Shown here in pieces: positions 4,204 through 19,310 of a DNA stretch of 49,590 nt. This DNA comes from Rhodocyclaceae bacterium (GTDB lineage Bacteria > Pseudomonadota > Gammaproteobacteria > Burkholderiales > Rhodocyclaceae). Numbering within the stretch: the stretch's first letter is position 1; each line of letters opens with the position of its first letter. The position numbers and the translations under genes were made by a program. Below the pieces are notes generated by a model. That model saw only the letters and a program-made list of their open reading frames with translations. It searched no databases and had not been told where the DNA came from. The stretch lies in NCBI GenBank assembly GCA_030652245.1, contig JAUSBB010000207.1, positions 1-49,590 on the forward strand. The letters are read 5' to 3'.

Positions 4204-5028
4204 TGGTTTTACTAACCGCGTGCGTGTCTCGGCGATGTTGGCGCGGAGCACGCTGGCATCCTCGGAGTTCGGTGGCATCAGCTTGAGCAGGGTTTCCCAG
4301 TCGGCGATGGCCTTTGCGTATTGCTGGGACTCGTAGGCGGCGGTGCCGCGCAGCCAGAGGCCGATCGGGTGATTCGGTTCGAGTTGCAGGGACTTGTCGA
4401 TCAGTGCGCGCACCTTGCTGTTGAAACCGCTGACGCTGGCCAGGGTGTCGGCATATTCGACATACAGGTCGGCATCGCCCCCGTTCTGGCTGACGACGCG
4501 CTCATAGGCGCCCACGGCGTCGGGCAGGCGCCCCATCTGCCGATAGGAACGCGCCAGCATGGCCCAGCCTTGCAAATTTTCCGGTTCTTTTTCCAGCTTG
4601 GTGGCCAGACCGCTGACCATGCGCTCGATGTCTTGCGCCGAGAACTGCTGCTCGGCGGCGGGTTGCGGTTTGAGTCCGGCCGGGGTGCCGAGCATCAGGT
4701 AGAGCAGCACGGCGACCAATGGCAGGGAAATGGCTAGTGCAGTGGGCACGGCGCGGCTGGTCGTGGTGGCTGCCGCGCTGTCGGTTGCGCTGTTGCTGTC
4801 TTCGATGAGACGCCGCCCCAATTCGGCACGCGCTTGAACGTAATCGTCCTGCGACAGGGCGCCTTCGGCGCGGTCCTTCTCCAGTTCGGCGAACTGGTCG
4901 CGGTAGATGGCGGCATTTAGCGCTTGGCGCGAAAGCTCCCGGTTTTTTGGCTGACGGAAGAATGGCAGCAGCAACAGCGCCAGTATTGCGAGCACCATGA
5001 GCGTGGCACCGATGACGAAACCGGTCAT
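4201..5028 (-). CDS. ccmI: c-type cytochrome biogenesis protein CcmI (TPR)
   Basis: N-terminal membrane anchors plus TPR region; last gene of ccm operon. Confidence 0.88.
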   Translation of the reverse strand: MTGFVIGATLMVLAILALLLLPFFRQPKNRELSRQALNAAIYRDQFAELEKDRAEGALSQDDYVQARAELGRRLIEDSNSATDSAAATTTSRAVPTALAISLPLVAVLLYLMLGTPAGLKPQPAAEQQFSAQDIERMVSGLATKLEKEPENLQGWAMLARSYRQMGRLPDAVGAYERVVSQNGGDADLYVEYADTLASVSGFNSKVRALIDKSLQLEPNHPIGLWLRGTAAYESQQYAKAIADWETLLKLMPPNSEDASVLRANIAETRTRLVKP

Positions 5029-5495
5029 ACCTGATCACCTTTCAGCAAAACTTCGGCACGTTTCTTTTCGTCCTCGGACAGCGGCGCCTCGACGATCAGG
5101 CGGCTGCGGCGGCGCAGGTAGTTCACCAATACGGCAAGGCCGACGATCAACAGCACGAACGGCCCGCCCCAAAGCAGCCAGGTGGTGGGCTTGAGCTGCG
5201 GACGGTAGAGCACGAAGTCGCCATAGCGGCTGACGAGAAAATCCTTGACCTGCTGATCGGAGTTGCCCTGCTTGATCAGGTCGCGCACTTCGCGGCGCAG
5301 GTCTTGCGCCAGCTCGGCCTGCGAGCCGGCCAGCGATTCGTTCTGGCAGACGAGACAACGCAATTCAGTGGAGATCTGTATGAGGCGCTGCTCGACAGCG
5401 GGGTCTTCGGCCAGTGGCGCGGCCTCTTTGGCAAGCACGGGGTGCGCCAGGAACAGAGCGCAGGCCACGGAGAGCAGGATGGTAGCTTTGTTCAT
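5025..5495 (-). CDS. ccmH: Cytochrome c-type biogenesis protein CcmH
   Basis: LRCLVCQNESLAGSQAELAQDLRREVRDLI motif. Confidence 0.95.
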   Translation of the reverse strand: MNKATILLSVACALFLAHPVLAKEAAPLAEDPAVEQRLIQISTELRCLVCQNESLAGSQAELAQDLRREVRDLIKQGNSDQQVKDFLVSRYGDFVLYRPQLKPTTWLLWGGPFVLLIVGLAVLVNYLRRRSRLIVEAPLSEDEKKRAEVLLKGDQV

Positions 5496-6016
5496 TTGTT
5501 CAACTCCTGCACCAGCGGGATGATTTTCTTTTGCAGCACTTCGGGGGTTACCGGTCCGATCTGCTTGAAGCGGATCACGCCGGCCTTGTCGATGACGTAG
5601 GTTTCCGGCACGCCATACACGCCATAGTTGATGCCGACGCGGCCGTCGCTATCGACGGCGGAAAGCAGATAGGGATTGCCGAAGCGGGCCAGCCAGCGAA
5701 TGCCGTCCTCGCGCTTGTCCTTGTAGTTGAGGCCGACGAGCGGGGTGGTGCCGGTCTTGGCGAACTCGTTGAGGATCGGGTGCTCCTCACGGCAGGACAC
5801 GCACCACGAGGCCCAGACATTGAGCAGCCAGACCTTGCCGGCCATCTCTTGCGGCGAGAATTTTGCGGTCTCGTCATGCAGTTGCGGGACGCTGAATGCG
5901 GGCGCCGGTTTGCCGACCAGCGGCGAAGGCACCTCGCGCGGATTGAGCGTCAGGCCGACGGCGAGAAAGCCGACCAGGACGACGAAGATGCCGAGCGGCA
6001 GAAGAAATCTGTTCAA
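5492..6016 (-). CDS. ccmG: Thiol:disulfide interchange protein CcmG/DsbE
   Basis: Thioredoxin-like LLNVWASWCVSCREEHP, YGVYGVPETYVID. Confidence 0.94.
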   Translation of the reverse strand: MNRFLLPLGIFVVLVGFLAVGLTLNPREVPSPLVGKPAPAFSVPQLHDETAKFSPQEMAGKVWLLNVWASWCVSCREEHPILNEFAKTGTTPLVGLNYKDKREDGIRWLARFGNPYLLSAVDSDGRVGINYGVYGVPETYVIDKAGVIRFKQIGPVTPEVLQKKIIPLVQELNK

Positions 6017-7950
6017 GCGGCACCCCCGGATTGTTTTACCTTCAGGCGATAACGACGGTCGCTGGCGGCAAAAATGCCACCCAGCGCCATCAACAGACAG
6101 CCGCCCCAGATCCAGCCGACGAAGGGCTTGTAATAGACGCGCACTGCCCAGGCTTCATTGCCCTCATTACCGCCCAATGGTTCGCCCAACGAAACATAGA
6201 CGTCGCGGGTGAAGCCGGAATCGATGGCGGCCTCGGTCATCGGCATTCCGGACGAGTGGTAGTTGCGTTTTTCGGGGTGCAGCGTGCGGAGCACGCGACC
6301 GTCCTTCGATAGTTCGACGGTGCCGATGGCGGCGCGGTAGTTGGGCCCTTCGGCATTGCGCACACCGATGAAGGTAAAGGTGTAGCCGGCGACCGCGACG
6401 GTCTCGTTCGGCGCCATGCGGACGTCGCGCTCATCCTCGTAGGTGCTGACCAGCGCCACGCCAATGACAAATACGGCCAGGCCGAAGTGCGCCAATTGCA
6501 TGCCCCACCAGGCGCGCGGCGGGGCACCCGTCTTGTACCGCTCCATCGCCTGCAAGACGATGGCTGCGAGGATCCACACGGCCAGTCCCAGTCCCAGGGC
6601 GACATAGGCGTGCCATTCGCCCGCCAGCATGGGCAGGCCGATGCCACCGAGGAGGGCGGCCAGGGCGGCCGGCCACAGCTTCTTGCCGATGTCCTTGAGA
6701 TCGGCGTGTTTCCAGCGGGCAAAGGGGCCGGTGGCGACCAGCAGCAACAGCGGCAGCATGATCGGTATGAACACCGCGTTGAAATAGGGCGGTCCGACGG
6801 AAATCTTGCCTAAGCCCAGCGCGTCGATGATCAGGGGATACAGCGTGCCGAGCAACACCGCGCCGCAGCCGACGACCAGCAGCAGATTGTTGATGAGCAG
6901 AAAGGTTTCGCGCGAGACCAGCGCAAAGCGTCCGCCCAAGCCTACCTTCGGTGCGCGCCAGGCGAACAGCAGGAGCGAGGCGCCGACGACGATGACCAGC
7001 AGCATCAGGATGAATAGGCCGCGCTTGGGGTCGGTGGCGAAGGAATGCACCGACGTGAGCACCCCCGAGCGGACCAGGAAGGTGCCGAGCAGGGAAAGCG
7101 AGAATGTGGCGATGGCCAGCAACACGGTCCAGTTCTTGAAACTGCCGCGCTTCTCGGTGACGGCGAGCGAGTGGATCAGCGCGGTGCCGACCAGCCAGGG
7201 CATGAACGAGGCGTTCGCGACCGGGTCCCAGAACCACCAGCCGCCCCAGCCCAGTTCGTAATACGCCCACCAGGAGCCGAGCGCGATGCCGAGGGTCAGG
7301 AAGACCCAGGCGACCGTCGTCCAGGGCCGCGACCAGCGCGCCCAGGCGGCGTCGATCTGGCCGGAAATCAGGGCGGCGATGGCGAAGGCGAAGGCGACCG
7401 AAAAACCAACGTAGCCCATGTAAAGCAGTGGTGGGTGAAAAATCAGGCCGGGATCCTGCAACAGGGGATTCAGGTCGCGCCCATCCGCGGCGGCCGGTAG
7501 GATGCGGCCGAACGGGCTGGAGGTGAATAGCACAAAGGCCAGGAGGCCGAACATTACCAGCCCCAGTACGCCCAGCACGCGCGCCACCATGGCGTCAGGC
7601 AGTTGGCGCGAGAACAAGGCTACTGCCAGCGCCCAACCCGCCGACAACAGCACCCACAGGAGCAGGGAACCTTCGTGACCACCCCAGACGGCGGCGAGAC
7701 GGTACATGGTGGGCAGTTGCGAATTCGAATGCCGCGCCACGTATTCGACAGAAAAGTCGTTGATGTAAAAGGCCCAGGTCAGACAGGCGAAGGCAAAGGC
7801 GAGCAACAGGAAGGTCGCGGTGACTGCCGGCCGCGCCACGGCGATCCATTGAGCATGATTGCGATGGACGCCGACGAGGGGCAGGACGCCCTGGGCCAGG
7901 GCGACCAACAGGGCAAGCATCAAGGCGAAGTGGCCGAGTTCTGGGATCAT
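6013..7950 (-). CDS. ccmF: Cytochrome c heme lyase CcmF
   Basis: MIPELGHFAL..., WWAYYELGWGGWWFWDPVANASFMPWL signature. Confidence 0.95.
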   Translation of the reverse strand: MIPELGHFALMLALLVALAQGVLPLVGVHRNHAQWIAVARPAVTATFLLLAFAFACLTWAFYINDFSVEYVARHSNSQLPTMYRLAAVWGGHEGSLLLWVLLSAGWALAVALFSRQLPDAMVARVLGVLGLVMFGLLAFVLFTSSPFGRILPAAADGRDLNPLLQDPGLIFHPPLLYMGYVGFSVAFAFAIAALISGQIDAAWARWSRPWTTVAWVFLTLGIALGSWWAYYELGWGGWWFWDPVANASFMPWLVGTALIHSLAVTEKRGSFKNWTVLLAIATFSLSLLGTFLVRSGVLTSVHSFATDPKRGLFILMLLVIVVGASLLLFAWRAPKVGLGGRFALVSRETFLLINNLLLVVGCGAVLLGTLYPLIIDALGLGKISVGPPYFNAVFIPIMLPLLLLVATGPFARWKHADLKDIGKKLWPAALAALLGGIGLPMLAGEWHAYVALGLGLAVWILAAIVLQAMERYKTGAPPRAWWGMQLAHFGLAVFVIGVALVSTYEDERDVRMAPNETVAVAGYTFTFIGVRNAEGPNYRAAIGTVELSKDGRVLRTLHPEKRNYHSSGMPMTEAAIDSGFTRDVYVSLGEPLGGNEGNEAWAVRVYYKPFVGWIWGGCLLMALGGIFAASDRRYRLKVKQSGGAA

Positions 7951-7959
7951 GGATAGTTT

Positions 7960-8400
7960 TTATTGCTTGAGGGTTTTTGCGGTGCTCTGCGCTTGATCGA
8001 TGGCGTGCTGCGCATGCGGCGGCGTGTAGTTCTCATCGTGCTTGGCCAGAACCTCGGTCGCGGTGAACACGCCATCAGCGCCGACTCGGCCCTGCACCAC
8101 CGCGCCTTTACCCTCCTTGAACAGGTCGGGCAGGATGCCGGTATAGACGACCGGCACTTCTTTGGCGGTATCGGTGATGACGAAATGCACGGTGAGGTTG
8201 TCGCGCCGGATCGACCCTTCCCTGACCATGCCGCCAACGCGGAAAGCCTTGCCTTGCGGCGCCTTGCCTTCGGTGAATTCGGTGGGCGTGATGAAAAAGG
8301 CGACGTTGCTGTCGAGAGCCTGGAACACCAAGGTGCTGGCGACGCCGATTGCGGCGAGACCGCCGAGGATGAGGGCAATGCGTTTATGGCGTGGCTTCAT
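7960..8400 (-). CDS. ccmE: Heme chaperone CcmE
   Basis: [19 protein letters not shown]..., [40 protein letters not shown]. Confidence 0.95.
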
Positions 8401-8579
8401 GGATTCTCAAGTATTTCAGCTTGGCGTTCGCGGCGCAGGATGCGCAGAATCGAACTCTGACGCTTCCTGACCAGAATAGGTTCCAAAATCATCAGCACGG
8501 CACAGACGCCGAAGCTGCCCCAGACATACAGGGCGTAGCCGCCCATGGCGAAAAATTCTGCCGGCGATCCCCAATTCAT
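8397..8579 (-). CDS. ccmD: Heme exporter protein CcmD
   Basis: 60 aa, one TM segment, [16 protein letters not shown]; between ccmE and ccmC. Confidence 0.9.
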
Positions 8580-9325
8580 GCTTTCACCTCATTGAGATCC
8601 TTGACCCATTCGGTATGGGCTTCGCGTTCGAGGATGATCGCGCGAACACGGGTCAAGGCAACAGCGATCGAATACATCCAGAAGGCGAGTGCCATGAGCA
8701 GCATGCCCCACAGCATGGTCGTCGCCATGGACGGGGCCTTGGCGAGGTTGATGGTCGAACCCTGGTGCAGGGTATTCCACCATTTCACCGAGAAGTAGAT
8801 GATCGGAACATTGACCACGCCCACCAGCGCGAGAATTGCCCCGGCCTTGTCGGCGCGGCGCGCGTCATCAATCGCCGCCTGCAGCGCGATGAAGCCGATA
8901 TAGAGGAAGAACAGGATCAGCGCGGAGGTCAGCCGGGCATCCCATACCCACCAGGCGCCCCACATCGGCTTGCCCCAGAGCGCGCCCGTCCACAACGACA
9001 GGAAAGCCATCAGCGCGCCGGTCGGGGCAATCGCCTGCGCCATCATGCCGGAAAGTCGCGTATTGAGCGCCAGCCCCAACCCCGCCCAGGTCGCCATGAC
9101 GACGTAAAGGAACATCGACATCCACGCCGCCGGCACATGAATGAAGATGATGCGATAGCCCTCGCCCTGCTGGAAATCGGTGGGCGCGACAAAAAAGCTG
9201 ACCCACAGACCGATGACGCCGAACACGGCCGTCAGCGCCCAGAACCACGGGATCATTCTGCCCGCGAGCGGATAGAAGCTCTGCGGGCTGGCGTATTTGA
9301 ACCAGCTAATCAGACGATTACTCAA
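8576..9325 (-). CDS. ccmC: Heme ABC transporter permease CcmC
   Basis: IIFIHVPAAWMSMFLY, WGAWWVWDARLTSALILFFLYIG. Confidence 0.95.
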   Translation of the reverse strand: MSNRLISWFKYASPQSFYPLAGRMIPWFWALTAVFGVIGLWVSFFVAPTDFQQGEGYRIIFIHVPAAWMSMFLYVVMATWAGLGLALNTRLSGMMAQAIAPTGALMAFLSLWTGALWGKPMWGAWWVWDARLTSALILFFLYIGFIALQAAIDDARRADKAGAILALVGVVNVPIIYFSVKWWNTLHQGSTINLAKAPSMATTMLWGMLLMALAFWMYSIAVALTRVRAIILEREAHTEWVKDLNEVKA

Positions 9326-9983
9326 GGGAAATCCTCAAGGCTGCCGTGGTTGCCCACGGCGCAAAAAACACGGCCAGCGCCAATAGCGCGGCCAGCAACG
9401 ACAGATGGCCACCGGCACCCAGGCCGGAGATGTGAGATTCTACCGCGCCGGCGCCGAAGATCAGGGCGGGCACATACAGCGGCAGCACCAGCAGCGACAC
9501 CAGCACGCCACCACCACGCACCCCCAGGGTGAGCGCCGCGCCGATGGCTCCGATCAGGCTCAACAGCGGGGTGCCCAATAACAACGCCACCACCAGCACG
9601 CCCAGCGCGCCAACATCCAGATCGAACTGAATGCCCAGCACCGGCGCCAGCAGCACCAGCGGCAGGCCGGTAGTGATCCAGTGGGCGGCAATCTTGCCCG
9701 TGACCAGCAATCCCAGCGGGGTGGGGGAGAGCACCATCTGTTCCAGCGTGCCGTCGGCGTGGTCGGGGGCGAACAGTCGTGCCAGACCGAGCATGGTGGC
9801 CAGCAAGGCCGACACCCAGATCACCCCGGGTGCGATGGTGCGTAGCAAGGCGGATTCCGGCCCGATGCCGAGGGGAAACAGGCTCGCCACGATGATGAAG
9901 AAAAACAATGCGGTCAGCACCTCGCTCTTCCTGCGCATCGCCAGGAGCAGATCGCGGCGGATGATGGCCAGCACGGCGTTCAT
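9318..9983 (-). CDS. ccmB: Heme exporter protein CcmB
   Basis: Hydrophobic protein, RLFAPDHADGTLEQMVLSPTPLGLLVTGKI; operon position. Confidence 0.93.
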   Translation of the reverse strand: MNAVLAIIRRDLLLAMRRKSEVLTALFFFIIVASLFPLGIGPESALLRTIAPGVIWVSALLATMLGLARLFAPDHADGTLEQMVLSPTPLGLLVTGKIAAHWITTGLPLVLLAPVLGIQFDLDVGALGVLVVALLLGTPLLSLIGAIGAALTLGVRGGGVLVSLLVLPLYVPALIFGAGAVESHISGLGAGGHLSLLAALLALAVFFAPWATTAALRISLE

Positions 9984-10585
9984 AGCGACAAAATCCGACC
10001 GTTCGGCAGCGGCATGCTCTGGTGGCTGGTCAGGATCGCCATGCCGCCCGCCGCCAGGTGGCTTTCGATCAATCCCGAGAGCATGTCGACGGCTTTCACA
10101 TCCAGAGCAGTGAAGGGTTCGTCAAGAATCCACAGCGTGGCTTTCCTGACGGCAAGACGCGCCAGCAACACGCGGCGTTTCTGCCCGGCGGAGAGAAAGC
10201 GCACCGCCAGATCTTCGCGTCCGCGGAGGCCAAAGCGCATCAGCGCCGAAAGAGCGTTTGCCTCATCGAGCGTCGTCCCGTCGAGTTGCGCGGCAAGCGT
10301 CAGGTTTTCGAGCGGAGTCAATTCTTCCTTCACGGCGCCATGGTGGCCAAGGAAGAGCATGGCGCGTCGATAGTCCTCGGCAAGCACGGTGACGGGCTCG
10401 CCCTGCCAGCGTACTTCACCTTCAGCGGGCGGTGACAGGGTGGCCAGAATGCGCAATAGACTGGTCTTGCCCGCGCCATTCTCGCCTTGCACATGCAGCC
10501 ACTCGCCCGGCCCGACCGCGAGATCGAGCCCGGCAAACAGGCGGCGTTCGCCGCGCACACAAGAAAGACCGGTGGCAGTCAGCAT
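9980..10585 (-). CDS. ccmA: Heme ABC exporter ATP-binding protein CcmA
   Basis: Walker A GENGAGKTSLLR, signature LSAGQKRRVLLARL, Walker B WILDEP. Confidence 0.95.
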   Translation of the reverse strand: MLTATGLSCVRGERRLFAGLDLAVGPGEWLHVQGENGAGKTSLLRILATLSPPAEGEVRWQGEPVTVLAEDYRRAMLFLGHHGAVKEELTPLENLTLAAQLDGTTLDEANALSALMRFGLRGREDLAVRFLSAGQKRRVLLARLAVRKATLWILDEPFTALDVKAVDMLSGLIESHLAAGGMAILTSHQSMPLPNGRILSL

Positions 10586-10621: not shown

Positions 10622-10635
10622 TTGACGGACGTCAA
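10622..10635. promoter_or_regulatory. CRP/FNR-type palindrome upstream of ccmA
   Basis: TTGAC-GGAC-GTCAA; 5+5 inverted repeat, 4 nt spacer, about 37 bp upstream of the ccmA start. Confidence 0.5.
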
Positions 10636-10658: not shown

Positions 10659-11336
10659 TCAGGGCCGCACCGGCAGTCTCGATATGAAGTCGGCGACGGC
10701 CGCGATGTCGTCATCGGTATAGTTCTTGATGACGTCGGCCATCTCGGGATTGGCATTGCGTCGGTTGCCGTCCCGAATCTTCTGGCTCTCGCGGAACAGG
10801 TATTTGAAATGCTGACCTGAAACCTTGGGGTAGAACTTGTCACCGCTCCCCTGCCCGCTGAATCCATGGCAAACGGCGCAGTCTTTCTCATACAACAGCC
10901 GCCCGTGCTTCAGGTTCTCACCCGGCCCTTGCCCGTTGTTTGCCGGGACCGGCAGATCGTTCAGAAAAACGGCGATGTCGGCGATATCCTGGGATGTGAG
11001 CGCGTGTTGATCGGCAAACGGCAGCATTTTTGGGTTGTGCCGCCGCCCCGTCTGTACGTCGGTAATTTGCTTGATGATGACCGAAGCGTGTTGCCCGGCC
11101 AGCCTTGGGTAGCTGCCGTCGGCCCGGCCCAGGGCGCCGACACGGTGGCACCCCTGACAAATGACGAAAGCTGCCTCGCCACGGACAGCATCGCCCCGGG
11201 CGCGGACGGCCTCGATCCGCTCGGGATACAGCGCGTTCCAGCCCTGGTTCACGGCGCTGCCCCCGGGTAATGATGCGTCTGCGTGAGCAGCAGCCCAGGC
11301 GAGCAGCAATACCAGCGCCGGATAATTAATTTTCAC
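10659..11336 (-). CDS. Diheme cytochrome c (c4-like)
   Basis: Signal peptide, two heme motifs CQGCH and CAVCH. Confidence 0.88.
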   Translation of the reverse strand: MKINYPALVLLLAWAAAHADASLPGGSAVNQGWNALYPERIEAVRARGDAVRGEAAFVICQGCHRVGALGRADGSYPRLAGQHASVIIKQITDVQTGRRHNPKMLPFADQHALTSQDIADIAVFLNDLPVPANNGQGPGENLKHGRLLYEKDCAVCHGFSGQGSGDKFYPKVSGQHFKYLFRESQKIRDGNRRNANPEMADVIKNYTDDDIAAVADFISRLPVRP

Positions 11337-11351
11337 CGTTCCATCTCCCGG

Positions 11352-11963
11352 TCATAACCCTGCAATGTATTCTGCCAGGGCCTTCATCTCGTCGGCGCTC
11401 AGGCGCTGGCCGACCGACACCATGAGCCGGTCGGCGGCGCGCCGTCCGCTTTTGTATTCAGCCAATTGCTGCAAAGTATAGGCCTGATGCTGCCCCGCCA
11501 GGCGCGGAAAGCGCGCGTTGCCCGAGCCGTTGGACTGATGACAGCCGGCGCAGGCGGGCACGCCGGTTTCCGTGTTGCCATCCTCGTAAATTTGCTTGCC
11601 GATTTCGGCCAATCGAGCGTTTCTGACCTTGCCCGGCAAGGGCTGTTGACTGCTGAAATAGGCTGCGAGAGGAAGAAAGTCCGCCTCTCCGATCGTGGCG
11701 ACGATTCCCGCCATGATGTCGTTGCGCCGCTGGCCAGAGGCGAAATACCTGAGTTGCTTGGCAAGATAATCCCGATCCAAGCCAGCGATCTTGGGATAAG
11801 CCGGGTCGGTGCTGTTGCCATCGGGCCCGTGGCAGGCTGCGCAAAGTGTGGCGGCAATCTGTTGTGCATCGGCCGCACGCACGCCAAACGGCAACAATAA
11901 AGACAGCACGAGCAGCGCCGACAATATCCAGCGTGACAGGTAGCCGAGGATGGATGAATGCAT
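11352..11963 (-). CDS. Diheme cytochrome c (c4-like)
   Basis: Signal peptide from Met at 11963 (MHSSILGYLSRWILSALLVLSLLLPFGVRA), motifs CAACH and CAGCH. Confidence 0.88.
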   Translation of the reverse strand: MHSSILGYLSRWILSALLVLSLLLPFGVRAADAQQIAATLCAACHGPDGNSTDPAYPKIAGLDRDYLAKQLRYFASGQRRNDIMAGIVATIGEADFLPLAAYFSSQQPLPGKVRNARLAEIGKQIYEDGNTETGVPACAGCHQSNGSGNARFPRLAGQHQAYTLQQLAEYKSGRRAADRLMVSVGQRLSADEMKALAEYIAGL

Positions 11964-12029
11964 TGCGGAGTTATGGAAGGGTGATTCACAACGAATGCGT
12001 ATCATCGCATCTGTTTGTGCAAAATCGGA

Positions 12030-12043
12030 TTGATTCTCATCAA
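12030..12043. promoter_or_regulatory. FNR-consensus palindrome between divergent cytochrome c genes
   Basis: TTGAT-TCTC-ATCAA, exact match to the FNR/Anr consensus TTGAT-N4-ATCAA. Confidence 0.7.
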
Positions 12044-12150: not shown

Positions 12151-12495
12151 ATGATCAAACTTCCCCTGTGCCGTTCTTCGCTGGTTGCCCTAACCGCCGC
12201 TTCCAGTCTGTTACTGGCGTTTCCCGCCGCCGCCCAAGTCGATGAAGATGCCGCCAAGCTGCTTTTCAAGCAGAACGAATGCGGCAAGTGTCACAATCCC
12301 GAGAAGGCCAAAAAAGGCCCGTCCCTGAAGAAGATTGCCAAGGACAACAAGGGCGACGAGAAAAAGCTCATCCAGCACCTGACCGTCAGCAAGAAGGTCA
12401 AGCTGGATGACGGCACGGAAGAGGATCACAAGGTCGTCGAAACTAAGGATCCGAAGGCGCTCGGTAACCTGGCCAGGTGGATTCTGTCCCACTAA
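12151..12495 (+). CDS. Monoheme class I cytochrome c
   Basis: Signal peptide, one CGKCH motif, 114 aa. Confidence 0.88.
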   Translation: MIKLPLCRSSLVALTAASSLLLAFPAAAQVDEDAAKLLFKQNECGKCHNPEKAKKGPSLKKIAKDNKGDEKKLIQHLTVSKKVKLDDGTEEDHKVVETKDPKALGNLARWILSH

Positions 12496-12567
12496 ATGTT
12501 GGTTGGTTGATCGGTGACGAATCAGGGGGCTTGCCCCCTGGGTAGTGTTCTAAAGGGGAGCATCGCC

Positions 12568-14583
12568 ATGCAAGTGCTGCAAACAAGCTTTCGCTTTATC
12601 GTCGCCATCGTCTGCCTGCTGGGCCTGTTGGCAACCGGGCCCGCGCTGTCCGCGCCGGCGACCGGCGCAAGAACCCTCTCCGCGGACAAGCTGGAGAACA
12701 CGAATCCCGATTGCCTGAACTGCCACGGCGCGAACAAGGAGGCGATCACGCTGATTGGCAAGGAGGGCGACAAGCGCAAGTTGCTGCCTGTCGATCTGCG
12801 CAAGTTCAGCAAGGGTGTGCACAGCGACATGCTCTGCACCGACTGCCATAAGGAAATCACCGACAACCAGGCCAATCACAAAAAGAGTGCCACCGCCAAG
12901 AAGCCCGACTGCGCCGGGTGTCACGAGGCCATTTGGGAAGTCGTCAAGAAAGAAGGCCTGACCAAGGAGAAGACGCGTCTGGGGCAGGTCGTCCAGAGTG
13001 CCGAGGAATACCGACAATCCTTCCATGCCAAGCCGGAGAAGGAAAATCCAGAGCGGGTGAATGCCACCTGCGTCGAATGCCATAGCGCCCACGATTTCAA
13101 TGTGCCGCCCAAGGGCACGGCGCGCCGCACCGTTTGGCACAAGACCATCAACGAGACCTGCGGGAAATGCCACGAAGATCAGTTGGAGATTTATGCCGCC
13201 TCCGTTCACGGCGAGGAGGTGATCGACAAGGGCAACATCAAGGCGGCGGTCTGCATCGACTGCCATTCCGCCCATAGTGTCGCCAATACCTCTTCAAACA
13301 ATTTCAAGCTCGGCAATACCGGTTCATGCGCCAGTTGCCACAAGACGGAGGCGAAGAGTTACTCCGACACCTATCACGGCAAGGTAAACAAACTGGGTTA
13401 CACCTACACGGCCCGTTGCGTCGACTGCCACGACAGCCACGGCATCAAGCGGATCGACGACCCCAAATCCAAGGTGCATCCCGATAACCGGATGAAGACC
13501 TGCCAGAAGTGTCACGACGGCAAAAAAATGCCGAAGGCGACGGCGGGTTTCGCCAGTTTCGCACCCCACGCCAATGCGCACGATTTCGAGAAGTATCCCG
13601 AGATGTGGGTCACCACGAAGTTCATGATCGGCCTGCTGATTTTTGTCTTCGCCTTCTTCTGGTTGCATTCCGGCCTCTGGTATTTCCGCGAGTGGAAAGA
13701 GCGCAAAGAGCATAAAGCCGAGATGCATGTGCGTACTGAAGGTCTGCAGCTGGATGAGAGTAAGCATTTCCAGCGGTTCCCGATTGGCTGGCGTATTGGA
13801 CATCTGGCCTTTGCCCTGGCCACCATGACCCTGGTGCTGACGGGGACGACCGCAATGTTCGCCAACACCGACTGGGCGCCGGTTGTCGCCAAGGCGCTCG
13901 GCGGCCCACAGGTGCTTGGCATCGTGCACCGGGTTGCCGCTGCCGTGTTCATCAGCATCTTCTTCATTCATTTTGTCTATGTCATGCAGCGCCTGTTGCG
14001 CGACAAGGACTTCCGCTGGTTTGGCCCGGATTCGCTGGTGCCCAACTGGAAGGATCTGGATGATTGCATCGGCATGTTCAAGTGGTTCTTCGGCAGAGGC
14101 CCGCGGCCGCAGTTCGACCGCTGGACCTATTTCGAGAAATTCGACTACTGGGCGGTGTTCTGGGGTGTGTCGGTCATCGGCGGCAGTGGTTTGATGCTGG
14201 CTCTCCCGCACATTACCGCCACTTACCTGCCGGGCTGGGTGTTCAATGTGGCGACGGTGGTGCATGGCGAAGAGGCTTTCCTGGCTGCGGTGTTCCTCTT
14301 CACGGTGCATTTCTTCAACAATCACTTCCGCCCCGGCAAACTGCCGCCGCCGGATGTCGTGATGTTCACCGGCACGCAGTCCTTGGAAGAATTCCGGCAA
14401 GAGCACCCGGCGCAGTATCAGCGCCTGCTTGAATCCAGGAAACTGCAGGCCTTGCTGGTCGAGGCACCCTCCCGTCCGCTGCATGTGGGTTCGGTGGTGC
14501 TTGGCCTGGCGCTGCTTACCATCGGACTGACTCTTCTGGTGCTGGTGTTCAATGGCATTCTTGGCAAGATCGTCGGCGGGTAG
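12568..14583 (+). CDS. Nonaheme cytochrome c / cytochrome b fusion (CbcL-like architecture), putative quinol oxidoreductase
   Basis: Nine CxxCH (CLNCH, CTDCH, CAGCH, CVECH, CGKCH, CIDCH, CASCH, CVDCH, CQKCH) then a multi-TM, His-containing domain (RIGHLAFALATMTLVLTGTTAMF, IVHRVAAAVFISIFFIHFVYVM, DYWAVFWGVSVIGGSGLML, VVHGEEAFLAAVFLFTVHFFNNHFRPGKLP); start at ATG 12568 after aaaggggag. Confidence 0.85.
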   Translation: MQVLQTSFRFIVAIVCLLGLLATGPALSAPATGARTLSADKLENTNPDCLNCHGANKEAITLIGKEGDKRKLLPVDLRKFSKGVHSDMLCTDCHKEITDNQANHKKSATAKKPDCAGCHEAIWEVVKKEGLTKEKTRLGQVVQSAEEYRQSFHAKPEKENPERVNATCVECHSAHDFNVPPKGTARRTVWHKTINETCGKCHEDQLEIYAASVHGEEVIDKGNIKAAVCIDCHSAHSVANTSSNNFKLGNTGSCASCHKTEAKSYSDTYHGKVNKLGYTYTARCVDCHDSHGIKRIDDPKSKVHPDNRMKTCQKCHDGKKMPKATAGFASFAPHANAHDFEKYPEMWVTTKFMIGLLIFVFAFFWLHSGLWYFREWKERKEHKAEMHVRTEGLQLDESKHFQRFPIGWRIGHLAFALATMTLVLTGTTAMFANTDWAPVVAKALGGPQVLGIVHRVAAAVFISIFFIHFVYVMQRLLRDKDFRWFGPDSLVPNWKDLDDCIGMFKWFFGRGPRPQFDRWTYFEKFDYWAVFWGVSVIGGSGLMLALPHITATYLPGWVFNVATVVHGEEAFLAAVFLFTVHFFNNHFRPGKLPPPDVVMFTGTQSLEEFRQEHPAQYQRLLESRKLQALLVEAPSRPLHVGSVVLGLALLTIGLTLLVLVFNGILGKIVGG

Positions 14584-14604: not shown

Positions 14605-14636
14605 AAAAAAGGCCGCGCAACGCGCGGCCTTTTTCT
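14605..14636 (+). terminator. Intrinsic terminator after the nonaheme/cyt b gene
   Basis: AAAAAAGGCCGCGC-AAC-GCGCGGCCTTTTT hairpin with T-tract. Confidence 0.85.
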
Positions 14637-14641
14637 TTTTC

Positions 14642-14655
14642 TTGACGCGCGTCAA
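14642..14655. promoter_or_regulatory. CRP/FNR-type palindrome upstream of the octaheme cytochrome gene
   Basis: TTGAC-GCGC-GTCAA, perfect 14 bp palindrome. Confidence 0.55.
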
Positions 14656-14836: not shown

Positions 14837-16615
14837 ATGGGAACAAGCAGATTGAAGCGTGGCATCGTTGGTATCGTGGCGCTCTGTGCCGCGACACTGT
14901 TCGGCGCATCCGGCGCGCTAGCGCAGAAGAAGCCGGATCCGGCCTATGCCAAACAGCAGGATGTGACCCTCGGCCAAATGAAGGGAAACCTGGCAAAGTC
15001 GGCCGAATCCAAGATCAAGTACGTCGATGTCAACAACTGCTACAGCTGCCACAAGGACATCAAGGAATTCCATGTCAGCAGCAAGCACGCCAGCGTGAAT
15101 TGCGCTTATTGCCATACGGACTCCGACAAGCATCTGGCCAAGGATGGCAAGCCTGATGGCATTGTGGCTTCCATTGGCACCCGTACCGACCACGCCGCCT
15201 GCGGCACCTGTCACCAGGAGCAGATGAACTCTTTCGCGACGATGAACTACGATTCGCACGCGAAAGTCGAAAAAGCCCAGGCCCGTAGTGTTTCGCCGAT
15301 GTTCGACAAGCTGATGCAGCCCCACGGCTTCACCCGCGAGCACGCCGAGCCGCGTAGCCACGTCTTTATGACGCTGGATCACCTGATCGTCGATCGCGCC
15401 TACGGTGGCCGCTTCCAGCTCAAGGACTGGACCTACATCTCCGACGCCAAGAGCGCCGTGTCCGACATGTGGAAGGTGATGCTGGTCGACAAGGAACCTG
15501 GCAACGGCGACCAGAAGGCCTTCATGCCCCAAGTGGCGACCGCCGCCAACCCGGTCTGCATGAACTGCAAGTCCTTCGACAACATCCTGAAGTGGAAGTA
15601 CATGGGCGACCCGGACCCGAGGGCCAAGTGGAGCCGCGTGTCCAAGCCGGTCGAGTTCGCGCGCGACATCACCCATGCGCTGAACTGCTTCATGTGTCAT
15701 GACCCGCACTCGTCCGCTCCGCGCGTTGCTCGCGACGGTCTGATCCAGGCGGTGGTAGATCGCGGCGAAGGCACCTATCCGTACGACAAGGCCAAGAGCG
15801 AAAAGAACCCGATGAAGAAGGTCACCTTCCGCGACGGTTTCCGTGCCATCGGTCTGCTATCCAAGCCTGACTCCAACCTGATGTGCGCCCAGTGCCACGT
15901 CGAGTACAACTGCAACCCCGGCTTCGAGCCGAATGCAGGTCCGGATGGCAAGGACAAGCCGGTCACCATGGCCGACCAGCGCACCAACCTCTTCCAGTGG
16001 ACCAACGTCTTCGATTACAACAAAAAAATGGTCGAGAAGTTCGGCAACTTCAAGGACTTCCGTCACGCCATCACCGGTGCCGCGCTGTCGAAGATTCAGC
16101 ACCCGGAGACCGAGACCTTCTGGATGTCCAAGCATGAGCGCGAAGGCGTCGAGTGCAAGGACTGCCACATGGGCAAGGTCGAGAAGAACGGCAAGACCTT
16201 CACCAACCACCAGCAGCAGTCGCCGCGCAAGATGCTCAAGGAAACCTGCGTGAAGTGCCACGGTGAGATGACCGAAGAGCAGGCCAAGTACCAGATCGAT
16301 GCCGTCCAGTCGTATACCCGCGGCAAGATCGTCAAGGCCGAGTTCTGGCTGGCCCAGTTGATCGACACCTTCGTGCGTGCCTACGACGCCGGTGTGCCGC
16401 GCAACTCCGAGGCGGTCAAGACTGCGCAGAAGCACCATGACGACGCACAGACCCGTTGGGAATGGTGGACGGCCGAGAACTCCGTCGGCTTCCACAACCC
16501 GCAGGCCGCGCGCCAGTCGCTGACCGAGTCGGTGACTCATTCGCAGGCCGGCATCAAGGCGCTGAACGACGCCATTGCCGCGTTGAAGGCGCCTCCTGTA
16601 GCGGCGGCCAAGTAG
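14837..16615 (+). CDS. Octaheme c-type cytochrome with CxxCK heme, ONR/NrfA-like nitrite reductase
   Basis: Signal peptide; CYSCH, CAYCH, CGTCH, CMNCK, CFMCH, CAQCH, CKDCH, CVKCH; NrfA-like blocks CAQCHVEYNC, IQHPETETFWMSKHEREGVECKDCHMGKV, HHDDAQTRWEWWTAENSVGFHNP. Confidence 0.87.
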   Translation: MGTSRLKRGIVGIVALCAATLFGASGALAQKKPDPAYAKQQDVTLGQMKGNLAKSAESKIKYVDVNNCYSCHKDIKEFHVSSKHASVNCAYCHTDSDKHLAKDGKPDGIVASIGTRTDHAACGTCHQEQMNSFATMNYDSHAKVEKAQARSVSPMFDKLMQPHGFTREHAEPRSHVFMTLDHLIVDRAYGGRFQLKDWTYISDAKSAVSDMWKVMLVDKEPGNGDQKAFMPQVATAANPVCMNCKSFDNILKWKYMGDPDPRAKWSRVSKPVEFARDITHALNCFMCHDPHSSAPRVARDGLIQAVVDRGEGTYPYDKAKSEKNPMKKVTFRDGFRAIGLLSKPDSNLMCAQCHVEYNCNPGFEPNAGPDGKDKPVTMADQRTNLFQWTNVFDYNKKMVEKFGNFKDFRHAITGAALSKIQHPETETFWMSKHEREGVECKDCHMGKVEKNGKTFTNHQQQSPRKMLKETCVKCHGEMTEEQAKYQIDAVQSYTRGKIVKAEFWLAQLIDTFVRAYDAGVPRNSEAVKTAQKHHDDAQTRWEWWTAENSVGFHNPQAARQSLTESVTHSQAGIKALNDAIAALKAPPVAAAK

Positions 16616-16636
16616 TCCTCTAGGTAGTAACATCAT

Positions 16637-16669
16637 CGGGGCGCGGAATTCCGCGCCCCGGTTTTTTTT
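16637..16669 (+). terminator. Strong intrinsic terminator after the octaheme cytochrome gene
   Basis: Perfect 24 bp palindrome CGGGGCGCGGAATTCCGCGCCCCG followed by GTTTTTTTT. Confidence 0.92.
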
Positions 16670-16680
16670 CGAGCCGAATC

Positions 16681-18591
16681 ATGATTCCTGAACTCGGGCA
16701 TGTCGCCCTAATCGTCGCTCTGCAACTCGCCTTGCTGCAAGGCATCCTCGGTCTGGTCGGCGCTTCCCGCGACAATGCGGCGTGGCGCGCGATGGCGCGC
16801 GGTGCTGCCGGCGGCCAGTTGCTTTTCGTCCTGCTGGGCTTCCTCGCCCTGATCTGGTCTTTCCTGATCAACGATTTTTCCGTGATGAATGTCGCCGATC
16901 ACTCGTCGCGCTTCCTCCCGGTGGAATACCGCATCACGGCGGCCTGGGGCTCGCACGAAGGCTCCTTCCTGCTGTGGACGCTGCTGATGGCGGGGTGGAC
17001 GCTTGCCGTCGTCATTCTTGGCCGCAAACTGCCGGCCGACCTGCATGCCCGCGTGATCGGCATCATGGGGCTGCTGAGCTTCTTCTTTCTCGCCTACCTT
17101 CTATTCACCTCCAACCCCTTCATGCGCCTGCATCCGCCGCCGGCGAACGGCAGCGACCTCAATCCGCTGCTGCAGGACCCGGGCATGATCATCCACCCGC
17201 CGTTGCTCTACATGGGCTATGTCGGCTTCTCGGTGGCCTTTGCCTTTGCCATCGCCGCACTGATTTCCGGCAAGCTCGATGCAGCCTGGGCGCGCTGGGT
17301 GCGCCCGTGGACCCTGATGGCGTGGGTGTTCCTGACACTGGGCATCATGATCGGCTCCTGGTGGGCCTATTACGAGCTGGGCTGGGGCGGTTGGTGGTTC
17401 TGGGATCCGAGCGAGAACGCTTCGCTGATGCCCTGGCTGGCCGGCACGGCGCTGTTGCACTCGCTGGTGGTTACCGAACGGCGCGGCGCGCTGCGGGTTT
17501 GGACCGTCTTCCTCGCGCTTGTCGTCTTCGCGCTCTCCCTGGTCGGCACTTTTCTGGTGCGCTCGGGCGTGCTGTCCTCGGTGCATGCCTTCGCGCTCGA
17601 TCCGTTGCGCGGCCTCTTCATCCTGGTCTTCCTCTGCATCCTGATCGGCGGTTCGCTGGTGCTTTTCGCCAAGCGCGCCGGCGCGGTCAAGGTCGCCGGT
17701 GACTTTGGCATGATTTCGCGCGAAACGGCCTTGCTGACCGGCAACGTCCTGCTGCTGGCGGCCTTGGCCACCGTGCTGCTGGGCACGCTTTATCCGCTGA
17801 TCCTCGATGCCTTCGGCCTCGGCAAGATCTCCGTCGGCCCGCCGTATTTCAATGCCGTGTTCGTGCCGATGATGGTGCCGGTGCTGTTGTTGCTCGGCAT
17901 CGCGCCGTGGATGCGCTGGGGTCGGGAGAGCCTGCCGGAACTGCTGCGGCGCGTGCGCTGGCAGGCGCTAGCCGCCGTGCTGATCGGCATCGCGTTGCCC
18001 TTTTTGTTCGAAGTCTGGCGCTGGCAGGCGGCCCTCGGATTGGTGCTCGCCGCCTGGATGATCCTGACCACGATCAGCGGTCTGATCGCTCGTCGCCAGT
18101 CAGATGGCGGATTGCCGCTCGCCGCCTACGGCATGGGCTGCGCCCACGTCGGCCTAGCCATCGGCATCATCGGCATGGGCCTGGTGTCGGCCTATCAGAG
18201 TGAGAAGACCGTCGCCATGCAGCCCGGCGACAGCGCCAGTCTCGGTCAGTACGAGTTCGTCTTCCGCGGCGCGGAAGAGGTACCGGCTGCCAACTATTCG
18301 GCGATGCGCGGAACGATCGAGTTGAAACGACAGGGCCAGGCGGTTGCCACGCTGTTGCCGGAGAAGCGCATCTATCGCAGCGCGCAGATGACGATGACCG
18401 AGGCTGCAATTCGCTACGGTTTTGTCGGCGATGTCTATGTCGCCATGGGCGAGCCGCTGGCGGGCGGCACTTGGAGCATGCAGTTGTATCTGAAGCCCTT
18501 CGTCGGCTGGTTATGGGGCGGGGCGATACTGATGGCGCTGGGCGGCCTGTTGGCGGCCCTGGGTTTGCGTAGCAAGGGAGTACGGGAATGA
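16681..18591 (+). CDS. Second CcmF paralog (NrfE-like cytochrome c heme lyase)
   Basis: MIPELGHVALIVAL..., WWAYYELGWGGWWFWDPSENASLMPWL; clearly homologous to ccmF at 6013-7950. Confidence 0.92.
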   Translation: MIPELGHVALIVALQLALLQGILGLVGASRDNAAWRAMARGAAGGQLLFVLLGFLALIWSFLINDFSVMNVADHSSRFLPVEYRITAAWGSHEGSFLLWTLLMAGWTLAVVILGRKLPADLHARVIGIMGLLSFFFLAYLLFTSNPFMRLHPPPANGSDLNPLLQDPGMIIHPPLLYMGYVGFSVAFAFAIAALISGKLDAAWARWVRPWTLMAWVFLTLGIMIGSWWAYYELGWGGWWFWDPSENASLMPWLAGTALLHSLVVTERRGALRVWTVFLALVVFALSLVGTFLVRSGVLSSVHAFALDPLRGLFILVFLCILIGGSLVLFAKRAGAVKVAGDFGMISRETALLTGNVLLLAALATVLLGTLYPLILDAFGLGKISVGPPYFNAVFVPMMVPVLLLLGIAPWMRWGRESLPELLRRVRWQALAAVLIGIALPFLFEVWRWQAALGLVLAAWMILTTISGLIARRQSDGGLPLAAYGMGCAHVGLAIGIIGMGLVSAYQSEKTVAMQPGDSASLGQYEFVFRGAEEVPAANYSAMRGTIELKRQGQAVATLLPEKRIYRSAQMTMTEAAIRYGFVGDVYVAMGEPLAGGTWSMQLYLKPFVGWLWGGAILMALGGLLAALGLRSKGVRE

Positions 18592-19310
18592 GTCTGTGGA
18601 TCGGGGTGGGGTGTTTCGTCGTCGTCGCGCTGGTGTTCCTGCTGGTTCCGCTCTGGCGGCAAAAGTCGGCGCTGGCGGGACGGCATGATGCGCGACGCTG
18701 GCCGACGATGGGCTTGCTCGGGGCGCTTCCCGCACTAACCGTCGGGCTTTACATCTATCTCGGCGCCCCGGGCATTCTCAAGGAGCAGGCGCTGACCCAG
18801 GCCCAATCGAATTACGATGTCGATGGCATGGTCAAGGCGCTGGAGGACAAGCTGAAAGCGACGCCCAACGATCCTGATGGCTGGTATGCGCTCGGTCGCG
18901 CCTACATCGCGTTCTCGCGCTATGCGGATGCCGAGGAGGCATTGCGCAAGGCGACAACGCAGGCGCCGCAGGACGCGCGGATCATCGCCCAGTATGCCGA
19001 AGCGATGGCCCTCAAGCAGGGCAGCCTCGACGGGCGGCCGCTGGAGCTGATCCAGGCGGCCCTGGAAATCAGCTATGAGGAGGAAAAGGCGCTGGAATTG
19101 GCCGGCCTCGCCGCATTCCAGAAGGAGAACTGGGCCGAAGCGCTGCATTACTGGCGGCGTCTGCTGAAGCTGTTGCCGAAAGTGACGGAACATCACGAGG
19201 CCATCGCCCAAGCCGTCCTGACCGCGGAAAGAAAGCTGGACATCCGTCTCGGCGGCACGGGCGTGCCGCTACCGCCGCCGCCCGCCGAACCGAAGAAGGC
19301 GCCGCACTGA
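18588..19310 (+). CDS. CcmI/NrfG-like TPR protein
   Basis: Two N-terminal TM segments plus TPRs (GWYALGRAYIAFSRYADAEEALRKA); overlaps end of ccmF2. Confidence 0.82.
   Translation: MSLWIGVGCFVVVALVFLLVPLWRQKSALAGRHDARRWPTMGLLGALPALTVGLYIYLGAPGILKEQALTQAQSNYDVDGMVKALEDKLKATPNDPDGWYALGRAYIAFSRYADAEEALRKATTQAPQDARIIAQYAEAMALKQGSLDGRPLELIQAALEISYEEEKALELAGLAAFQKENWAEALHYWRRLLKLLPKVTEHHEAIAQAVLTAERKLDIRLGGTGVPLPPPPAEPKKAPH
18661..18684 (-). repeat. Dispersed 24 bp repeat, copy 2 (inside CcmI-like CDS)
   Basis: Reverse complement reads GCCGTCCCGCCAGCGCCGACTTTT, identical to copies at 39118 and 46079. Confidence 0.85.

Follow-up and report, generated by a model that had tools for sequence, protein, structure and literature searches.

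Does the octaheme cytochrome encoded at this locus belong with the octaheme nitrite reductases (ONRs) or with the pentaheme NrfA-type enzymes, and what do the genes around it suggest about its maturation and use? The window, i.e., the whole stretch of 49,590 nucleotides that was analysed, comes from a bacterium related to Sulfuritalea, whose draft genome is 85% complete and divided into 214 contigs. With a probability of about 0.95, the product of the gene (onr) is a periplasmic octaheme cytochrome c nitrite reductase and belongs to the family of TvNiR, the enzyme from Thioalkalivibrio nitratireducens (PDB 2ot4, 3f29); it would reduce nitrite, putatively supplied by NapA, to ammonium, with catalysis at heme 4.

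Table 1. Features of the onr locus and its surroundings (window coordinates).
Feature	Position	Strand	Remarks
Housekeeping ccm region	4204-10585	-	
CcmI-like	4204-5028	-	HMM match
CcmF, housekeeping	6016-7950	-	HMM match
CcmC, presumed	8576-9325	-	named from sequence and family knowledge
CcmB, presumed	9318-9983	-	named from sequence and family knowledge
CcmA, presumed	9980-10585	-	named from sequence and family knowledge
Small monoheme cytochrome c	12151-12495	+	perfect FNR box 5' at 12030-12043
Fused nonaheme c-type/cytochrome b (FdnI-like) membrane protein, CbcL-like layout	12514-14583	+	689 residues
Terminator-like hairpin	14606-14634	+	between CbcL-like gene and onr
FNR-type palindrome TTGACGCGCGTCAA	14642-14655	+	upstream of onr (-195)
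ONR gene (onr)	14837-16615	+	592 aa, N-terminal signal-like segment
Heme 4 motif CMNCK	15557-15571	+	catalytic; proximal Lys245 (TvNiR Lys188)
Tyr357-Asn358-Cys359	15905-15913	+	counterpart of cross-linked Tyr303/Cys305 of TvNiR
Terminator-like hairpin	16635-16662	+	between onr and second ccmF
Second CcmF/NrfE-type heme lyase subunit	16681-18591	+	ONR-associated clade
CcmI/NrfG-like TPR protein	18588-19310	+	overlaps 3' end of second ccmF

Family assignment of the octaheme protein

The onr reading frame begins with ATG, just downstream of a GGAGG ribosome-binding site, and its translation contains, from the N- to the C-terminus, the heme motifs CYSCH, CAYCH, CGTCH, CMNCK, CFMCH, CAQCH, CKDCH, and CVKCH. 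This is the order given for the ONR family, namely three CxxCH, one CxxCK, and four CxxCH motifs (PMC10716430). An earlier note on this DNA had described heme 4 as CMNCK among seven CxxCH motifs, followed at heme 6 by CAQCHVEYNC, and both descriptions hold in the translated frame.

Sequence comparison (phmmer) against solved structures first returns TvNiR (E = 5e-195, 55% identity, chance being excluded) and its very similar counterpart from Thioalkalivibrio paradoxus, the pair spanning E values of 5e-195 to 1e-185. Next comes the ONR of Trichlorobacter ammonificans (2e-134), and NrfA proteins appear from 2e-28 and weaker. None of the PDB sequence matches at E ≤ 10 is a MccA, OTR, or HAO chain.

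Structure prediction, one of the checks proposed in the earlier note, leads to the same family. The AlphaFold model built from a 63-sequence alignment reaches a pLDDT of 90 and a pTM of 0.90, a model from nine sequences only (pLDDT 39) having been discarded. When compared using Foldseek, it matches TvNiR (3f29) with a TM score of 0.93, an rmsd of 1.9 Å, and 55% identity, and the T. ammonificans ONR (8rv0), from a different phylum and 43% identical in the structural alignment, with a TM score of 0.88; NrfA reaches about 0.6, and MccA stays below 0.2. The predicted fold is that of an ONR, and membership of the MccA, OTR, or HAO families was rejected on the MccA score and on the lack of such chains among the PDB matches, sequence similarity to these families being too low for a reliable alignment.

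The other proposed check, phylogeny, was carried out on 397 columns shared with NrfA, for 64 ONRs and 11 NrfAs, with a quick search and SH-aLRT support. One branch, supported at 100%, separates ONRs from NrfAs, and the window protein stands within the ONR clade. Its nearest neighbours are one ONR from Sulfuritalea and one from Comamonadaceae, inside a 10-row clade (99%) that also holds Propionivibrio dicarboxylicus and Rhodoferax. The P. dicarboxylicus ONR (L042), which is listed in PMC5433712, is likewise encoded just ahead of a second CcmF and a TPR protein, although it shows 64-68% identity to the window protein and its CcmF is more diverged. TvNiR, which has the same eight hemes, CxxCK heme 4, six catalytic residues, Y-x-C motif, and fold, sits in a different subclade from the window protein, which belongs to a betaproteobacterial one.

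Two rows of the tree deserve a remark of their own. The record titled Bordetella parapertussis (L061), a MAG, has an ONR that clusters with those of uncultured Betaproteobacteria, and the name looks misassigned. Another sequence (L012, genome G081) is a pentaheme NrfA-type protein in which CINCH replaces CxxCK at the first heme, and its branch is long and separate from the remaining NrfAs.

As the window protein and NrfA have the Cytochrom_C552 Pfam domain in common, the protein might be regarded as a pentaheme NrfA with added N-terminal hemes rather than a true ONR. Nevertheless, NrfA and ONR fall into separate, fully supported clades, the model fits ONR far better than NrfA (TM 0.93 vs about 0.6), and the NCBIfam NrfA models score far under their cut-offs (101 vs 595 bits, and 79 vs 692 bits). 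The protein has eight heme motifs instead of five and a place outside the NrfA clade; tree and fold comparison refute the pentaheme identity, to which scarcely any probability can be given. Neither sequence nor fold yielded any evidence against ONR identity, and the ONR-type reading of the earlier note is upheld by the tree, the fold, and the active-site residues.

Active site and the Tyr-Cys pair

The residue equivalences, counted from the phmmer alignment with TvNiR and checked in the ONR/NrfA alignment, are (window/TvNiR) Arg187/Arg131, Lys245/Lys188, Tyr357/Tyr303, Cys359/Cys305, Gln421/Gln360, and His422/His361, so that all six catalytic residues are present. The Y-x-C spacing, which had been likened to that of TvNiR, coincides exactly, and the pentaheme NrfAs recovered differ at heme 6, as had also been stated, reading C(G/A/S)(Q/N)CHVEYYF.

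The six positions are invariant in an alignment of 63 diverse ONRs, and the active-site tyrosine, arginine, and cysteine have been stated for 64 ONRs (PMC5433712). A scan of GTDB genomes, started from a nine-sequence alignment, found 359 genomes encoding relatives, of which 80 were kept; Tyr-x-Cys (YNC or YTC) follows heme 6 in every one of these 80, a count that leans towards the motif, since QCHVEYN was one of the two scan patterns, the Cys lying outside it. YNC is also found in 11/11 ONR matches from whole-genome searches made without this pattern. Because none of the six catalytic residues varies among the 63 ONRs, Y-x-C is, as judged from the alignment, a fixed trait of the family and no peculiarity of the window protein, and its novelty is accordingly smaller than the title of the earlier note implies.

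As the model superposes on TvNiR, Tyr357 and Cys359 should lie beside the CxxCK heme, as they do in that enzyme. A thioether cross-link between them is predicted by analogy with TvNiR, in which the bond is visible by crystallography and cryo-EM (PMC6209398). Conservation by itself does not prove modification, and the bond might be absent or partial in the window protein despite both residues being kept; this is improbable, given that neither Tyr and Cys nor the active site around them varies and that the fold is the one in which the bond has been seen (PMC6209398).

By the proposed mechanism, nitrite, probably produced by the periplasmic NapA of the same genome, would bind the Lys-ligated heme 4, where Arg187, His422, and Tyr357 would surround it during its six-electron reduction to ammonium. 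Tyr357, probably thioether-linked to Cys359, would thereby become a better proton donor, and electrons would be delivered through the seven bis-His hemes. The attachment of heme 4 would probably be carried out by the second CcmF and the TPR protein encoded directly downstream.

A second CcmF next to onr

The window holds two CcmF genes, one in the housekeeping ccm region and one directly 3' of onr. A second CcmF with at least 75% identity to the window copy occurs in 6/6 ONR-carrying genomes of the genus whose contig continues past onr (in two others, left out of the count, the contig breaks off within onr or shortly behind it) and in 0/11 genomes of the genus without ONR, each of which has one CcmF; as these genomes are related, the counts describe an association and not independent events. 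In this lineage, the CcmFs encoded beside ONR fall into a single clade with 100% support; no more than two columns of the alignment (Leu121 and Gly354 of the window copy) set this clade cleanly apart from the rest. The second CcmF is not an NrfE by NCBIfam, as it scores 716 bits against the TIGR03145 cut-off of 927; the housekeeping CcmF scores 762, so that the model does not tell the two apart.

Other lineages are arranged differently. In Thiobacillus-type genomes, onr precedes a complete ccm operon, and in Thioalkalivibrio draft genomes, the ONR-adjacent CcmF groups with ccm-operon CcmFs, whereas the window onr adjoins the distinct second CcmF. In Nitrospirota, no homologue of the window ccm genes was found near the onr genes.

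The closest known parallel is found in E. coli, where nrfEFG serves NrfA (PMC12285233) as a CxxCK heme lyase and where a duplicated CcmF and a TPR protein likewise lie beside a CxxCK nitrite reductase. The window locus differs in that its second CcmF falls under the NrfE cut-off and no NrfF-like gene stands between the CcmF and TPR genes. Since the second CcmF forms its own clade and tracks the presence of ONR in the genus, it may, together with the TPR protein, constitute a heme lyase devoted to the CxxCK motif of ONR in one betaproteobacterial lineage, NrfEG-like and possibly of separate origin within the CcmF family, a proposal for which the odds are about even.

Expression, neighbouring cytochromes, and the nitrate route

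Flanked on both sides by terminator-like hairpins, onr appears to be transcribed separately from its neighbours. Six copies of onr in the genus (the window, L014, L015, L016, L019, and L023), which are related to one another, have sufficient sequence 5' of the gene, and each carries a TTGA(C/T)N4(A/G)TCAA box 91-195 bases before onr, where 0.026 boxes would be expected per 460 bases; upstream of most ONRs outside the genus, no FNR-type box was seen. Within the window, exact TTGACGNNCGTCAA palindromes stand before the ccm operon (10622-10635) and before onr (14642-14655), with 0.18 expected per window at up to one mismatch. Anaerobic control of onr by an FNR-type regulator is, hence, likely on the basis of these boxes.

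Upstream of onr is the membrane protein gene that fuses nine CxxCH motifs to a cytochrome b domain, here in a betaproteobacterium. Its layout resembles that of Geobacter CbcL. CbcL is an inner-membrane quinol dehydrogenase that unites c- and b-type cytochromes, and the fusion protein is a possible quinol dehydrogenase by analogy. Its candidacy as an ONR-specific electron donor is weakened by homologues of 54-69% identity in genomes of the genus that lack ONR (G001, G003, G005, and G016), by its location, which differs relative to ONR where the gene is found near ONR at all, and by the terminator-like hairpin between the two genes. Some relatives encode several paralogues of the fusion per genome. 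Two adjoining diheme cytochrome c genes (10659-12005, minus strand) lie beside the ccm operon, and such genes are near ONR in several relatives too.

The same genome encodes a full NapA (1456 bits). In this incomplete draft, for which absences are provisional, no NarG was found above the cut-off, nor any NirS or NrfA, and the window ONR is the only ONR/NrfA-type match. As NapA is encoded and NrfA, NarG, and NirS went undetected, nitrate is probably converted to ammonium by a periplasmic Nap-ONR route, of the kind that is likely in T. ammonificans; in Trichlorobacter, ammonification by Nap paired with ONR has been described (PMC11972089).

As TvNiR can reduce hydroxylamine and sulfite besides nitrite (PMC8840924), sequence alone does not settle which substrate is used in vivo. 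The enzyme might thus serve mainly in detoxification, by reduction of hydroxylamine, NO, or sulfite, instead of respiratory nitrite ammonification, which would also agree with nap being neither adjacent to onr nor in an operon with it in the window. Such a role is unlikely, if a little less so than a missing cross-link, in view of the NapA present and the NirS not found in the draft genome, and of the Nap and ONR pairing of Trichlorobacter; respiratory reduction of nitrite to ammonium is preferred.

Everything points to an ordinary, textbook ONR, in which, judged from the sequence, no active-site residue of the known family is missing, and the one detail of slight novelty would be the second heme-attachment gene that accompanies this enzyme of an already-known kind. 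It adds one more betaproteobacterial ONR, from a genome probably converting nitrate to ammonium via Nap and ONR. The invariance of the Tyr-Cys pair across several phyla argues for the cross-link as a core element of the chemistry of ONRs, rather than an adaptation of haloalkaliphiles. How System I recognizes CxxCK was called unclear by a 2025 review (PMC12285233), and this recognition could be tested by simple genetics with the ONR-linked second CcmF.
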